Below, piece after piece: positions 4,516 through 13,070 of a DNA stretch of 37,347 nt (the first letter of the stretch is position 1; each line of letters begins with the position of its first letter). The notes below the pieces were generated by a model. It saw nothing but the letters and a program-made list of their open reading frames with translations, was not told where the DNA came from and made no database searches. Made by a program: the position numbers and the translations under genes. The DNA comes from Planctomycetales bacterium (GTDB taxonomy: Bacteria > Planctomycetota > Planctomycetia > Isosphaerales > Isosphaeraceae), in the NCBI GenBank assembly GCA_027451885.1, contig DAIDHX010000061.1, forward strand, positions 1 through 37,347, written 5' to 3'.

Positions 4516-5829
4516 CTAGCAGAACGGCTTGAGCGCCTGGCGCATTGAGGCGGCGTCGGGATAGCGTTGCTCGGGATCGCGTGCCAGGCAGCGTCCGAGA
4601 ACGTCGGCGAGCGCGCGTGGAACATCCTTGCGCCGATCGCGAATTGGGATCGACGGCTCCTCGAGCAGCATCCGGATCAGATCGCCGCCGCTGGAATCAT
4701 CATAGATATACGCACACGTAAGCAAATAATAGAGCGTGGCGGCTGTGGCGTAGAGATCGGCGAGCGGGGTGACGGTCTTGAAGTCGAGCATCTGCTCGGG
4801 GGGCATGAAGGGGACGGTACCGCGCATCTCCCCGGAAAAGGTCAGCCCTGAGAGTCCGACGCCGCGGAAGTTCTTGGCCAGTCCGAAGTCGGAGATCTTG
4901 ACTGTGAGTCCCTGGGCGGTCTGGCTGATCAGGATGTTTTCGGGCTTGATGTCGCGATGCACGAAGCCGAGCTTGTGGGCCTGTTCGAGCCCTTTCAAGA
5001 TCTGGCAGGTGAGCCGGCAAGCCTGGTTGGTGGGGTAGCGGCCGGGCTCGGCCTTGGCGAGCGCCTCGAGATTTGAGCCGGCGACATATTCCATTGCGAA
5101 CCAGAACTGCCCGCGGGTCATCCCCTGCTCGTACCATTCAACGATGTTGGGGTGACGGAGCTGGCTGATGACCGACATTTCGCGCAGGAAGCGATCGATG
5201 GCTGCGCGGGTGGTTGCGGTCTCGGGCATGATCAGCTTGAGTGCGACCATCTGCCCGGTGGTATTATGCCGCCCCTGGTAGACGACGCCCATCGCGCCCC
5301 GGCCGAGCTCACGGAGGGTGGTGTAATGCGGCACAAGCTGGGGCAAGGCAGAGGCTTCGGATCGGCAAAGCCCGCACCACCATTCCACGGCCTCGGTACC
5401 GTCGCTGCCGGGACCGCCCAGGATTGTGAGATTCGGCGGCGCCTGGGCTCCACAACCTGTGCAGCGGATCCCGGTCTGTAGCAGTCGATCCCGGCTGGTT
5501 GACGAATCTTCGTTCCCCCGAAGGCTCTCCGCCGATTCCACCTGCACCCGGAATACGCTCTGGCCGGCGGAGATCAGATCGCCGGTATTGAGCCGGGCGC
5601 GGTCCACTCGCACGTTGTTGAGATAGGTGCCGTTCGTGCTGCCGAGATCGCGAAGCTCGCAAAGCGGTGGATGCACCTCGACCAGAAAATGGTCGCGGGA
5701 AAGCGCGACGTCTTCTGGCATGGGGCAATGCACGTGCCGCGAACGGCCGACGATAAACGTCTCGTGCCGGTCGAAGACGAACGAACGGCCCTTGCGAGGG
5801 CCATCCAGAACATCCAGAATCACACGCAT
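4516..5829 (-). CDS. FHA - zinc ribbon - Ser/Thr protein kinase
   Basis: A 437-residue cytosolic protein with no transmembrane segment. An N-terminal FHA domain (about 1-97) has the phosphothreonine-binding residues GRS (28-30), S44-x-x-H47 and GSTNGT (63-68). A CxxC...CxxC pair (C123, C126, C152, C155) follows, likely a zinc ribbon. Residues about 169-437 are a Hanks-type kinase: GRGAMG P-loop (176-181), K198, catalytic HRD (291-293) in VHRDIKPEN, and DFG (314-316). The activation segment is followed by PPEQ instead of APE. All catalytic residues are present, so activity is expected. Most bacterial kinases of this type are membrane-anchored; this one probably works in the cytoplasm, with FHA reading phosphorylated partners or itself. 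Targets are unknown. Confidence 0.93.
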   Translation of the reverse strand: MRVILDVLDGPRKGRSFVFDRHETFIVGRSRHVHCPMPEDVALSRDHFLVEVHPPLCELRDLGSTNGTYLNNVRVDRARLNTGDLISAGQSVFRVQVESAESLRGNEDSSTSRDRLLQTGIRCTGCGAQAPPNLTILGGPGSDGTEAVEWWCGLCRSEASALPQLVPHYTTLRELGRGAMGVVYQGRHNTTGQMVALKLIMPETATTRAAIDRFLREMSVISQLRHPNIVEWYEQGMTRGQFWFAMEYVAGSNLEALAKAEPGRYPTNQACRLTCQILKGLEQAHKLGFVHRDIKPENILISQTAQGLTVKISDFGLAKNFRGVGLSGLTFSGEMRGTVPFMPPEQMLDFKTVTPLADLYATAATLYYLLTCAYIYDDSSGGDLIRMLLEEPSIPIRDRRKDVPRALADVLGRCLARDPEQRYPDAASMRQALKPFC

Positions 5830-7860: not shown

Positions 7861-9333
7861 TCAGTTGCGTCTGGGGTTCTGGGCCGGCCGAGATCCCACC
7901 GGCGCGCCTTGAGGCGGGCGAGTGGCGGTGGATTCGAAGCGGAACGAGCCCATGATGAGCTCATCCTCGCGCCCGATCGCGGGGGCGTCGTCCGCGGGCA
8001 GCGCAAAGGTGCCGACGACCTGATCCCCCTGCGGGTTCGAGGCCAGGTAATAGTACCAGAGGATGGCCAGACTTCCCTCGCGCCCCAGAACCCCCACCTT
8101 GAGCAGCCGGGCGACCGAGGGATCACCGGCGACCTCGCCCATGCCCACCAGGCGTGAGAAGCGGTCCTTGAGCGCTTTCTTCACGTCTTCCTGGAACTGG
8201 GCGGGCTCCTGGGCCCGGCCGGGTCCAAGCGACGGACCCTGCGAGAGATTGAGCTGGGCGATCACGCGTTCCCCTTCCAGCCGCTTGAGCACAACGACGC
8301 GCGGATCTTCCCAGAATACATGCCAGCGGCGGTCATGCAGCAAGCTCGATTTGCCCCCTGGCCCAGCCTGGCGCAACAGCAGTCGCGAGGGGGTCATGGC
8401 CAGGGAAACCGCCGAGAGACTGGCGTCAGAAAGGGTCGCCGGGGGGCTCGCCTGCTCGCGTTTCATGCTCAGCGTGCTTTTGACGTCGAGCCCCGCCTCG
8501 ATGGGACCGGGCTCGCGGACCTCGGCACGGTTCACCTCGAGACGGTCGAGCCACTTCCTGCGCCTGTCGTAGGTCACGTAACCGTTGCACATCATGGCGC
8601 CTGCGCCTCCCAGCGCGCGGCCCTCGATCCGGCCCGAGAATTGCACCCTGGCCGTTTGCGCATCGAAAGAAACCAGGGTTGCCTCGACCTTGCTCGCCGT
8701 CACCACGTCGTAGCCCGAGATGGCCGCCGCGCCGGCCAGGCTCACCTTGTACCGATCCCCCTGCGCCAGCGCCCGGCCAGGCATCAGGTCGATAAGCGAG
8801 AGCGGATCGCCAGGCCCCTCCACGAGCTCAAGCTCAGAGCGCGACAGGGGTCCGCGCAAGCTGGCGACGACCACGGGTGCGTCCCTGGGCTTTTCCGCGA
8901 TCAGCAGCCCTAGCTCAGGCGCGAGCGCGGTCGCCGCCGGCCGAATCTCCCCATTGATCGCCGAGGCCGCCTGAATCAGTTGCCGCACAATCCGGGGCGA
9001 TCCCGCCGACGCCTCGCCGCCAGCCACAACCCGTCCATCCCGGCCCACAACCACCACCCGCTCGTGGAAGATCAGCCGCGTCTCCACCTCCAGCATGAGC
9101 GGTTTGGGCATCTTCCTCTCAGCGCCACCACCACCGGGAGGCAAACCTGGCCGAAACAGGCCATGCGCCTTGAGCTCAATCCGGACCCGAGACGCCTCCC
9201 CAGCCCAAGGCCGCGCATCCAGCACAACCGTCTGGCCGCCATCGCACGCATCGACCGTCCCTGAAACCAGGCACATGCACGCAATCGCCAACGCGACGCA
9301 CGCGCACAAACGCCCAGAACTACGGCACGCCAT
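7861..9333 (-). CDS. Secreted protein of unknown function
   Basis: 490 residues from the ATG at 9333, chosen because a perfect AAGGAGG lies 5 nt upstream; the open frame to 9384 has no such site. The signal peptide is LCACVALAIACMCLVSGTVDAC, with cleavage near SGTVDA or lipidation at the Cys. The rest is soluble, beta-rich and without recognised domains. The segment GDRYKVSLAGAAAISGY and the following strands parallel DTWKVPIQEAAALLGY in the next gene, and both proteins end in a domain terminating in a short F-E segment (GSFRFES here, IKSFELHE there). It probably works in the periplasm or at the cell surface; nothing more can be said. It has its own strong promoter at 9383-9410. Confidence 0.7.
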   Translation of the reverse strand: MACRSSGRLCACVALAIACMCLVSGTVDACDGGQTVVLDARPWAGEASRVRIELKAHGLFRPGLPPGGGGAERKMPKPLMLEVETRLIFHERVVVVGRDGRVVAGGEASAGSPRIVRQLIQAASAINGEIRPAATALAPELGLLIAEKPRDAPVVVASLRGPLSRSELELVEGPGDPLSLIDLMPGRALAQGDRYKVSLAGAAAISGYDVVTASKVEATLVSFDAQTARVQFSGRIEGRALGGAGAMMCNGYVTYDRRRKWLDRLEVNRAEVREPGPIEAGLDVKSTLSMKREQASPPATLSDASLSAVSLAMTPSRLLLRQAGPGGKSSLLHDRRWHVFWEDPRVVVLKRLEGERVIAQLNLSQGPSLGPGRAQEPAQFQEDVKKALKDRFSRLVGMGEVAGDPSVARLLKVGVLGREGSLAILWYYYLASNPQGDQVVGTFALPADDAPAIGREDELIMGSFRFESTATRPPQGAPVGSRPAQNPRRN

Positions 9334-9382
9334 CGATGCCTCCTTGATCATTCGAGGACGTCCTCCCAAAAATCCGGCAGGC

Positions 9383-9410
9383 ATTATGGGCTCCCTGCCG
9401 ATCCTGTCAA
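9383..9410 (-). promoter_or_regulatory. Strong sigma-70-type promoter for the 9333 gene
   Basis: On the minus strand a consensus TTGACA (9405-9410), a 16-bp spacer and CATAAT (9383-9388), about 50 bp before the start codon. Confidence 0.65.
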
Positions 9411-9429: not shown

Positions 9430-10184
9430 CGGAACTTCCCACCTGAATGCACCCATTCATCTCTTCCGAGGACCATGTCAAACTTCTCCGCTGCCGACCA
9501 AATCCGTTACACGCGTGCCTGCAATCTTGTTAGGATGAAGCGACTAAAGCGCTGACCCTGCCGCACCAGGCGAGGACTTGTCGACATTCTCGCGAGGGCT
9601 CCAATTGCTGACGTTTTTATTGTCAAGGAAATGACTTATGGCTTTTTGAGGAAGGTCGCGAGCCTCCGCCACGGAGGGAATGTCGGAACGGTAGATCCAA
9701 GAAACCCGCGAATTGGGCGAACAACTTCCAGGATTCAAACGTCTGTTTGAAACGGGCGTTTGGTTCGGTGGGTAAAACAACCGGGTGGGACGGAGACGAG
9801 ATTGGTCGGGAATCGAGGGGGTGCAAGGGAGGGCTGGCCTGGGAGAAGGCAGAGACCCCGCGGAACTGGCTGCATGCATGGCCCCAGACTGGTTTAACGA
9901 ACGTCTTCTAGAATGAACGGGGATTGGCGCGAGGCTTGCTTAAGGATTCTGGAGAACCGAAGAGGCCCGACAAACGTCCAAGATGGTGGTCGGTGGGAAT
10001 TCTGGTCACGGGGAACGGCGATCCGACGTTGTTCGGAGGGCGTATAAGAAGAGAGCGGAGCTGTCGGCGGGTGGAATTTGGCCGCCTGCGAGGAATAGGA
10101 AAGGTCGTCGCAAGTTTGCGGGAAATGACGATTGAATCAGCAACCGGATGACCGCGAGGAAGGGATCGCGAGGAGCAATTGGGG
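9430..10184. other. Long non-coding region upstream of the sigma factor gene
   Basis: About 755 bp with no credible gene on either strand; the frames that stay open give Arg/Ser/Pro-rich products without domains. The centre (9590-9780) is AT-richer than its surroundings. It holds a 5-bp stem CCTCC...GGAGG (9663-9677) and the palindrome at 9734-9751. TATAAG occurs near 10042, but no -35 box stands at the right distance. It may contain a long leader, a small RNA or decayed sequence. Confidence 0.45.
9734..9751. promoter_or_regulatory. Palindrome TTCAAAC-GTCT-GTTTGAA
   Basis: A perfect 7-bp inverted repeat with a 4-nt centre in AT-rich non-coding DNA. It could be an operator or a small hairpin. 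Confidence 0.3.
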
Positions 10185-11864
10185 ATGAGCAAGGGGTACC
10201 GCCATCCAGCGATGAAGCAGCTCAAGGACCAGCAGGCGCGGTACGCGCCTCGCGAGCGTCGCCTGGAGCAGGTGGAGCGGGCGGAGCAACTCCTGGGGGA
10301 GATCGAGTCATCCAAGCGTTATCCGTATGAGTATCTGTGTTTTCGGATTACCGGGTATCGCCCGGAAGGGTCGCCTGCGCTGGTACTTGACGGCGACGAT
10401 GTGACGCATGATTTGCGGCTTTTTGTGGAGGACCTGTCGGCCACGGCGCGGCAGTCTGTGGAGCAGGTCGATGAACCTGTGCTCACGGTTGAAGAAGTGG
10501 GCAAGCGATACAACGTGTCGACGCGAACGGTGACGCGGTGGCGGGACAGGGGTCTCGTGGCGCGGCGGTTCGTGATCGGCGGTCGGACCAAGGTTGGTTT
10601 CCTGGAGTCGAGCCTGAATCGCTTCGTGTCTGCGAATCAAGGGCAGGTGGAGCGGGGGTCGCGATTTCGTCAGCTTACCGAGGCCGAGCGCGAGGAGATT
10701 ATTCGTCGCGCTCGCCGCATGGCGCAGTTTCGCCCGGGCCAGGTCGGCCTGATCGAGGCAGCGCGGAGGATTGCCAGAACCATGTCACGTTCAACCGAGA
10801 CCATCCGCACGACCTTGAAGGCGTATGACCGGGACCATCCCGAGCAGCCGATCTTCCCGACGGTGCAGGCCCCGCTGGATGAGGAGGCCAAGTCGCAGAT
10901 TTACCTGCGTTACCGCATGGGGGTGTCGGCCGAGATGCTGGCCCGCCAGTACGGGCGGACGCGTTCGAGCATCTACCGCCTGATCAACGAGATGCGGGCC
11001 AGGCGGCTGCTCGAAACCAAGCTGGAATTCATCGACCACGAAAGCTTCCGGAACCCCGAGGAAGCCGCGGCGATCATGGCGCCTGTGCCGGAACCGGCCA
11101 GCGGCAAGGCCCCGCGGCGAACCAAACCCCCCAAGGGTCTGCCCCCTTATCTGGCGAGCCTTTACGAGGTCCCCCTGCTCGACCGCGATCAGGAAGCGCA
11201 TCTGTTCCGCCAGATGAATTATCTGAAGTACCAGGCGCACACGTTGCGCGCCCAGCTCGACCCGACCCGTGCGAAGACCGCGGAGCTCGACGAGATCGAG
11301 CGGCTCCAGGAGGAGGCGCTCGCACGCAAGAACCAGATCATCCGCGCCAACCTGCGGCTCGTGGTCTCGATTGCCAAACGGCACGTCGGCCCCACGAACA
11401 ACTTCTTCGAGCTCGTCTCCGACGGCAACATGTCGCTGATCCGCGCGGTCGAGAAATTCGACTACTCGCGGGGCAACAAGTTCAGCACCTACGCGTCGTG
11501 GGCGATCATGAAGAACTTCGCCCGCACCATCCCTGAAGAAAACCACCGCCGCGACCGGTTTGTCACCGGCCACGAGGAGATGTTCGAATCCGCGGCCGAC
11601 ACCCGCGCGGACGAGCACGAGTATGAATCAGCGGTGAAGCGCATGCAGGAAGTGGTGCGCGGCATGCTGGGCCGGCTCGACGACCGCGAGCGCAAGATCA
11701 TCGTCAGCCGCTTCGGGCTCGGCGGCGCCAGCGAGCAAACCCTGGAGCAGCTTGGGCGCGAGCTGGGCATCACCAAGGAGCGCGTGCGGCAGATCGAATC
11801 CCGCGCCCAGGACAAACTGCGCCGGTTCGCGAGCGAGGAAAAGCTCGAGCTCCCCATGCTTTAA
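10185..11864 (+). CDS. Sigma-70 family factor with N-terminal HTH modules and no region 3
   Basis: 559 residues from the ATG at 10185, with GAGGAG 9 nt upstream. The first 315 residues are not sigma-like: a helical N-terminus, then an excisionase/MerR-like HTH (about 97-147, LTVEEVGKRYNVSTRTVTRW), a second helical HTH-like segment (186-213) and a third HTH (236-277, SAEMLARQYGRTRSSIYRLI). A linker leads to a region 1.2-like segment (318-345), sigma region 2 (about 384-450, RANLRLVVSIAKRHV, DGNMSLIRAVEKFDYSRG, FSTYASWAI) and region 4 (493-550, ERKIIVSRFGL...ITKERVRQIESRA). Only about 40 residues separate regions 2 and 4, so region 3 is missing. It directs RNA polymerase to promoters; which ones is unknown. 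The next gene starts 3 bp after its stop. Confidence 0.9.
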   Translation: MSKGYRHPAMKQLKDQQARYAPRERRLEQVERAEQLLGEIESSKRYPYEYLCFRITGYRPEGSPALVLDGDDVTHDLRLFVEDLSATARQSVEQVDEPVLTVEEVGKRYNVSTRTVTRWRDRGLVARRFVIGGRTKVGFLESSLNRFVSANQGQVERGSRFRQLTEAEREEIIRRARRMAQFRPGQVGLIEAARRIARTMSRSTETIRTTLKAYDRDHPEQPIFPTVQAPLDEEAKSQIYLRYRMGVSAEMLARQYGRTRSSIYRLINEMRARRLLETKLEFIDHESFRNPEEAAAIMAPVPEPASGKAPRRTKPPKGLPPYLASLYEVPLLDRDQEAHLFRQMNYLKYQAHTLRAQLDPTRAKTAELDEIERLQEEALARKNQIIRANLRLVVSIAKRHVGPTNNFFELVSDGNMSLIRAVEKFDYSRGNKFSTYASWAIMKNFARTIPEENHRRDRFVTGHEEMFESAADTRADEHEYESAVKRMQEVVRGMLGRLDDRERKIIVSRFGLGGASEQTLEQLGRELGITKERVRQIESRAQDKLRRFASEEKLELPML

Positions 11865-12857: not shown

Positions 12858-12922
12858 TCCAACCCGATCCCGATCGTTATTCTCTTGTCGCCGGGTTCGC
12901 TCCGCGCCCTGAGCAAATTTTC

Positions 12923-12943
12923 AATCGGCCTTGCTGGCCGGTT
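12923..12943 (+). terminator. Weak hairpin after the DUF72 gene
   Basis: AATCGGCC-TTGCT-GGCCGGTT gives an 8-bp stem with one G-T pair. There is no T-tract after it, so it may slow or mark the 3' end rather than act as a classical terminator. Confidence 0.35.
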
Positions 12944-12947
12944 GCCC

Positions 12948-12975
12948 TTGCCAAGACGCGATCGGCGAATATACT
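12948..12975 (+). promoter_or_regulatory. Promoter of the tRNA-tuf operon
   Basis: TTGCCA (12948-12953), 16 bp, TATACT (12970-12975). RNA would start near 12982, about 16 nt before the first tRNA. Confidence 0.7.
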
Positions 12976-12997
12976 AGAAGGCTTCACAGTCCGATTC

Positions 12998-13070
12998 GCT
13001 GGTGTAGCTCAATCGGTAGAGCATCGGTTTTGTAAACCGAGGGTTGAGAGTTCAAGTCTCTCCGCCAGCT
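12998..13070 (+). tRNA. tRNA-Thr (anticodon TGT)
   Basis: A 73-nt cloverleaf. Acceptor GCTGGTG pairs with CGCCAGC (one G-T pair), the T arm is GAGAG-TTCAAGT-CTCTC, and the anticodon loop TTTGTAA contains TGT. CCA is not encoded. It matches the position and anticodon of E. coli thrU. Confidence 0.97.

Follow-up and report, generated by a model that had tools for sequence, protein, structure and literature searches.

The sigma gene and its surroundings

The stretch of DNA analyzed here (37,347 nucleotides, hereafter the window) carries on its forward strand an open reading frame that begins with an ATG at 10185, ends with its stop codon at 11864, and encodes a sigma70-family protein of 559 amino acids. 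The features assigned to this protein and to its upstream region are collected in Table 1.

Table 1. Features of the sigma gene and its upstream region, in window coordinates
Feature	Residues	Position	Strand	Basis
Conserved GCGAACAA, operator-adjacent on the sigma side		9717..9724	+	Upstream-region comparison
Operator AAAC-N4-GTTT-N-AAAC-N4-GTTT, 25 bp, AAACGTCTGTTTGAAACGGGCGTTT		9737..9761	.	Sequence type shared with the predicted autoregulatory site of the CecR-type TetR on contig C58
Whole protein (sigma70 family), HTH arm followed by sigma 1.2/2/4, without sigma-3		10185..11864	+	Pfam, AlphaFold
Helical N-terminal domain, conserved, unknown fold	1-90	10185..10454	+	AlphaFold2, orthologue alignment
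Winged HTH, MerR/excisionase/BldC type	99-150	10479..10634	+	Pfam HTH_17, BldC profile match, Foldseek
Second HTH, three helices, HTH_38-like	166-217	10680..10835	+	Pfam, AlphaFold2
Third HTH, HTH_28/29-like	233-277	10881..11015	+	Pfam, AlphaFold2
Family motif preceding region 1.2	270-292	10992..11060	+	Common to short cellular paralogues and phage homologues
Region 1.2-like	319-366	11139..11282	+	Alignment with actinobacterial SigA/HrdB
Region 2, with altered 2.4 (ASWAIMKNFAR, 437-447)	383-448	11331..11528	+	Pfam, alignment
Short disordered linker in place of sigma-3	449-475	11529..11609	+	PF04539 search, AlphaFold2
Region 4, RpoD-like recognition helix TKERVRQIE	485-549	11637..11831	+	Pfam, alignment

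The first-pass annotation had proposed a C-terminal part composed of sigma regions 1.2, 2, and 4, preceded by three HTH-like modules, and both parts of this layout were confirmed. Matches above the curated Pfam cut-offs included HTH_17 at residues 99-150 and HTH_29/28 at 238-274. Sigma70_r2 (PF04542) was found at 386-442 (E 1.2e-13), with the core- and -10-binding residues of sigma2 present, and Sigma70_r4 (PF04545) at 495-546 (E 1.3e-18), with the -35 HTH of sigma4 present; the sigma70-ECF superfamily model TIGR02937 covers 383-547. The region 1.2-like segment, placed by alignment, was not matched by PF00140 in the Pfam search of the protein.

Neighboring genes were then compared across related loci. 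A divergent gene at 7861-9384 (-) encodes a 507-aa protein with a signal-like N-terminus and no Pfam or NCBIfam match; in 60 of 94 loci, it sits beside the sigma gene. Farther upstream, 4516-5829 (-) encodes an FHA domain together with a serine/threonine kinase. On the other side, the sigma gene precedes tRNAs-tuf-secE-nusG-(rplKAJL-rpoBC) in 36 of 72 loci. We rejected this synteny as a clue to function; it gives no regulon, because the tRNA-tuf unit has its own conserved, ordinary promoter (TTGC-N16/17-TATAwT). That tRNA-Thr/Tyr/Gly/Thr-tuf promoter (window 12908-13070; loci L051-L093) is itself a candidate planctomycete housekeeping consensus. DUF72 was likewise rejected as a partner, being a same-strand neighbor in only 4 of 72 loci.

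The sigma core and the N-terminal arm

We examined the segment between regions 2 and 4, where region 3 had been reported missing. In a whole-genome search with Sigma70_r3 (PF04539), this gene went unmatched even at E ≤ 1; the same model scored over its cut-off at the RpoD of the genome (contig C71) and at four other sigma genes. The full-length AlphaFold2 model (69 sequences, mean pLDDT 84.3), which matches primary sigma factors with E ~1e-8, has a helix at 433-448 that closes region 2.4, pLDDT below 50 at 450-475, and a further helix at 476-496, so that the region 4 helices start from 476 and no sigma-3 bundle is seen. Search and model thus both bear out the absence of region 3. Part of the linker (DRF..E.F..D.R) looks like the region 3.2 "finger" of RpoD, and hhalign gave no confident extension into it.

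The unusual region 2.4 was also borne out, with W439, A440, I441, M442, K443, N444, A446, and R447 invariant across 69 orthologues. In E. coli sigma70, F427, Y430, and W433 form the -11A pocket, and W434, Q437, and T440 lie on the -12 side. The equivalents of the first set are retained as F433/Y436/W439, and those of the second are replaced by A440/K443/A446. The region 4.2 recognition helix, TKERVRQIE, is near-identical to TRERIRQIE of RpoD. Among 108 class members checked, equivalents of F427/Y430/W433 and of region 4.2 T530/K531/E532/R535/Q536 were kept in every one, and the -12 positions were uniformly A/K/A; all 18 tabulated key residues were identical in 106, and the remaining two members differed at HTH3 positions only. 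Intact members farther away keep A440 (with one exception each way) and have K or R at position 443. Conservation within the protein peaks in region 2. Judged from these residues, -35 reading would be RpoD-like and -11A capture normal, with -12 reading changed and the extended -10 contact lost.

Turning to the arm, Pfam searches of 52 N-terminal orthologues returned HTH_17 and HTH_23 in all 52, HTH_29 in 51, and HTH_38 in 46. An AlphaFold2 model of residues 1-300 (pLDDT 86.8) comprised a helical domain (8-88) followed by a winged HTH (99-150) and two units of three helices each (166-217 and 233-277); the placement of domains relative to one another is unreliable in the AlphaFold2 models (pTM 0.46-0.56). 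The modules are therefore modeled as HTH domains, and the first, initially described as excisionase/MerR-like, is a winged HTH. Its profile search matched the BldC structures 6ama (E 0.0024) and 6amk, and Foldseek with residues 99-150 gave BldC 6ama_B as the best match (probability 0.99, TMt 0.67, but E 0.27). The whole arm had no significant Foldseek match (best E 0.27). Residues Y5, L13, Q29, E34, L36, G70, and D76 of the N-terminal helical domain are invariant. The arm is basic (pI 10), and the basic residues of the recognition helices in its HTH units are conserved.

Distribution, relatives, and a predicted TetR switch

A survey of the architecture across planctomycetes recovered full-length orthologues in 40 of 40 sampled genomes of Planctomycetia, at 45-57% identity and in one case divided between two contigs; at E ≤ 1e-40, a further 31 genomes from other classes had one as well. 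As such orthologues occur across the phylum, the architecture is not a product of chance. The N-terminal profile matches 90 of 392 genomes. This is a core gene of the class Planctomycetia, patchy in the rest of the phylum, and its full-length form is single-copy per genome. None of the 40 sampled class members departs from this fusion or its domain order, which distant classes share.

The source genome also encodes a separate, canonical RpoD. This genome yields 59 matches to sigma region 2, vs just five to region 3 that pass the cut-off. Many genomes additionally encode 300-400-aa paralogues beginning at about query residue 270 and devoid of the HTH arm; in Planctomycetia, these carry the same region-3-less sigma core. 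Large phages also encode arm-less, region-3-less sigma factors of this branch (~310 aa). The phage homologues lie on viral contigs of ~44-533 kb, two of which have clear terminase matches, and one homologue adjoins a T4-type RNA ligase/tail-fiber attachment gene. The hosts of these phages are probably planctomycetes. In a maximum-likelihood tree, full-length, short, and phage proteins form one clade (98/98) with RpoD next (85/91); the ECF rows of this tree are long-branched and unreliable. Within that clade, the short forms cluster (95/73), as do the phage forms (100/99), which are sister to the short planctomycete paralogues. The existence of these short paralogues and phage relatives indicates that the sigma core can work without the arm.

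The reverse situation was also found. In genomes of families f67, f7, f89, and f96, the arm is recognizable, and the proteins have either lost region 4 or no longer carry the key residues of the two sigma modules. The HTH-unit residues R118, R208, and R265 are retained in nearly all of these lineages. Since these residues persist where the sigma core has decayed, the arm has a function independent of that core and is selected for itself. Such lineages look as if a sigma factor were becoming a simple regulator.

The 800-bp intergenic region upstream of the sigma gene contains the operator-like AAACGTCTGTTTGAAACGGGCGTTT. The pattern AAAC-N4-GTTT-N-AAAC-N4-GTT occurs with zero mismatches at exactly two sites in the 6.18-Mb genome, and shuffling predicted no occurrence in the window. 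The second site (contig C58, 17264-17288) lies directly before a tetR gene whose product has both TetR_N (PF00440) and CecR_C (PF09209), placing it among CecR-type regulators, and which heads an efflux operon of FtsX-like permease, ABC ATPase, and HlyD. Eight other Isosphaeraceae genomes all have the pattern before the sigma gene, seven of them also before the tetR orthologue (51-70% identity), and none has it in any other context, with zero control matches. Across a 99-genome sample of the class, every exact site with a fetched locus adjoins a gene homologous to this tetR (36-100% identity), one of them in another family; some Isosphaeraceae have no operator site (e.g., loci L051, L052, and L061). 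Because the two-site operator is paired with tetR and recurs in related Isosphaeraceae, a TetR-to-sigma circuit is predicted, in which the CecR-type repressor would control the sigma gene in these genomes. Possibly, the operator instead serves the divergent gene. On the tetR side, a TTGAC-N17-TACAnT promoter precedes the operator; the sigma side has no promoter of that type and instead carries the conserved GCGAACAA, which might be a non-canonical promoter element. The arrangement GCGAACAA-N17-CGTC upstream of the sigma gene is at most suggestive of an ECF-like promoter.

Proposed role and comparison with known sigma factors

On the basis of the computed domain layout, the missing sigma3, the conserved residues, the distribution, the arm's independent retention, and the two-site operator, we propose that the protein is an alternative sigma factor whose built-in HTH arm replaces sigma3 and anchors it to promoters, placed in Isosphaeraceae under CecR-type TetR control; we give this proposal an even chance of being correct. 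The protein would belong to a planctomycete-specific sigma70 branch closest to RpoD, with sigma2 and sigma4 presumably binding core RNA polymerase. Its reading of the -35 element would resemble that of RpoD, and the -10 element would be met by the usual -11A capture but a different -12 reading. With the domain that contacts the extended -10 gone, the basic three-HTH arm, its first unit BldC/MerR-like, may touch additional promoter DNA and so restore the anchoring and specificity lost with sigma3, giving a holoenzyme with its own sequence-specific tether. In Isosphaeraceae, the TetR protein would repress both the sigma gene and its own ABC/HlyD efflux operon. Of the first-pass interpretation, the domain layout, the lack of region 3, and the changes in region 2.4 have stood; neither outcome named there as refuting it arose, as no normal region 3 was seen and the N-terminal modules were modeled as HTH domains. 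Its further idea of sigma and activator in one protein is carried forward as plausible, because the arm has a pI of 10, its recognition-helix residues are conserved, and it is retained in sigma-decayed lineages.

Other roles for the arm were also weighed. It might mainly be autoinhibitory or a protein-interaction platform (cf. region 1.1 and fused ECF domains), masking sigma2 and sigma4 until a partner or DNA releases them and leaving promoter choice to the sigma core alone. Arm-less paralogues and phage homologues exist, and regulatory extensions of sigma factors are documented to act through conformational change or protein interaction (PMC8999054). We nevertheless regard this as unlikely, though a serious contender, given an arm of three HTH units with conserved basic recognition-helix residues and a pI of 10, kept even where the sigma core has decayed and nothing is left to inhibit. 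The lineages without region 4, or with both sigma modules degraded, must act, if at all, via the arm alone, and so raise the thought of two separate jobs: a trans regulator at some loci and an alternative sigma factor elsewhere, the halves never meeting at one promoter. This seems rather improbable, as the preservation of fusion and order in 40 of 40 class members sampled and in distant classes favors coupled use. A degenerate protein that has kept its binding to core RNA polymerase but lost the ability to drive transcription would fit the missing sigma3, the altered -12 contacts, and the decay in related lineages; with the functional residues of sigma2 and sigma4 strictly conserved in 108 class members and region 2 the most conserved part, we consider it very improbable.

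Returning to the promoter-anchoring proposal, a wider picture can be drawn tentatively, somewhat less likely than not to be right. A separate sigma70 branch would have replaced sigma3 with a three-HTH array, making sigma factor and sequence-specific activator one polypeptide; it would be a core gene of Planctomycetia with a dedicated TetR switch and arm-less relatives in large phages, and some lineages would be turning it into a plain DNA-binding regulator by losing the sigma half. In bacteria, sigma factor and activator are as a rule two different proteins. Here, one protein may both locate its target genes and start their transcription; such a conserved fusion would stand midway between sigma factors and classical regulators, and would provide a natural setting in which to ask whether DNA contacts made through a tether can stand in for the extended -10 contact. 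Little is known of transcription in Planctomycetia, where the gene is core; the TetR operator provides a handle on when the sigma factor acts, and, to judge from the phage relatives, large phages seem to exploit this sigma branch too. Planctopirus limnophila, a model genetic system with a TraDIS library (PMC10632474), makes the protein directly testable.

The open-access literature that we searched (subscription papers lying outside the search) contained no description of a three-HTH arm joined to a region-3-less sigma factor; papers there on planctomycete sigma factors are about those of the ECF and WD40 kinds, or name a "specialized sigma factor" in general terms. The family therefore appears to be undescribed so far. 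One such "specialized sigma factor" is Rhodopirellula baltica RB12251 (567 aa, pI 9.4), repressed by heat, cold, and salt alongside ribosomal genes (PMC2754498). Its length and pI fit the present family (pI 9.1-9.4) and make it a candidate orthologue, but related genomes hold a second RpoD-like ORF of ~567 aa.

Among characterized proteins, BldC and other MerR/excisionase winged HTHs resemble residues 99-150 through HTH_17 and 6ama/6amk; here, however, the HTH is one module within a sigma factor, and its 24 bits against a BldC family cut-off of 77 bits denote a resemblance of fold only. The sigma part gave its top NCBIfam score, 149 bits, to MzaA (MZA anti-phage sigma, NF041931), far under the 800-bit equivalog cut-off and with an alignment limited to that part. 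The phage homologues of the region-3-less core belong, with a low score, to phrog_351 (phage RNA polymerase sigma factor), and these phage proteins differ in lacking the HTH arm.

The protein appears to fit none of sigma70 groups 1-4 in the usual grouping (PMC4598750). The absence of sigma3 speaks against groups 1 to 3, group 3 being usually defined by sigma2, sigma3, and sigma4 (PMC4598750). It resembles group 4 (ECF) factors in joining sigma2 to sigma4 via a short linker without sigma3. An ECF assignment is opposed by the region 1.2-like segment, by RpoD-like sequence in regions 2 and 4, and by tree position, the ECFs of the genome branching elsewhere (on long branches); the protein is also ~560 aa vs ~200. 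Against a definition of ECF factors as "only sigma2 and sigma4," the picture is mixed, with sigma3 absent but the region 1.2-like segment and a 315-aa HTH arm present. RpoD/SigA/HrdB (group 1/2) is closer: the 1.2-like, 2, and 4 regions align best with actinobacterial SigA/HrdB, the region 4.2 recognition helix is almost identical, and this group is the nearest outgroup in the tree. Unlike those factors, the planctomycete protein has neither sigma-1.1 nor sigma-3, its -12 contacts are replaced, and a three-HTH arm has been added.
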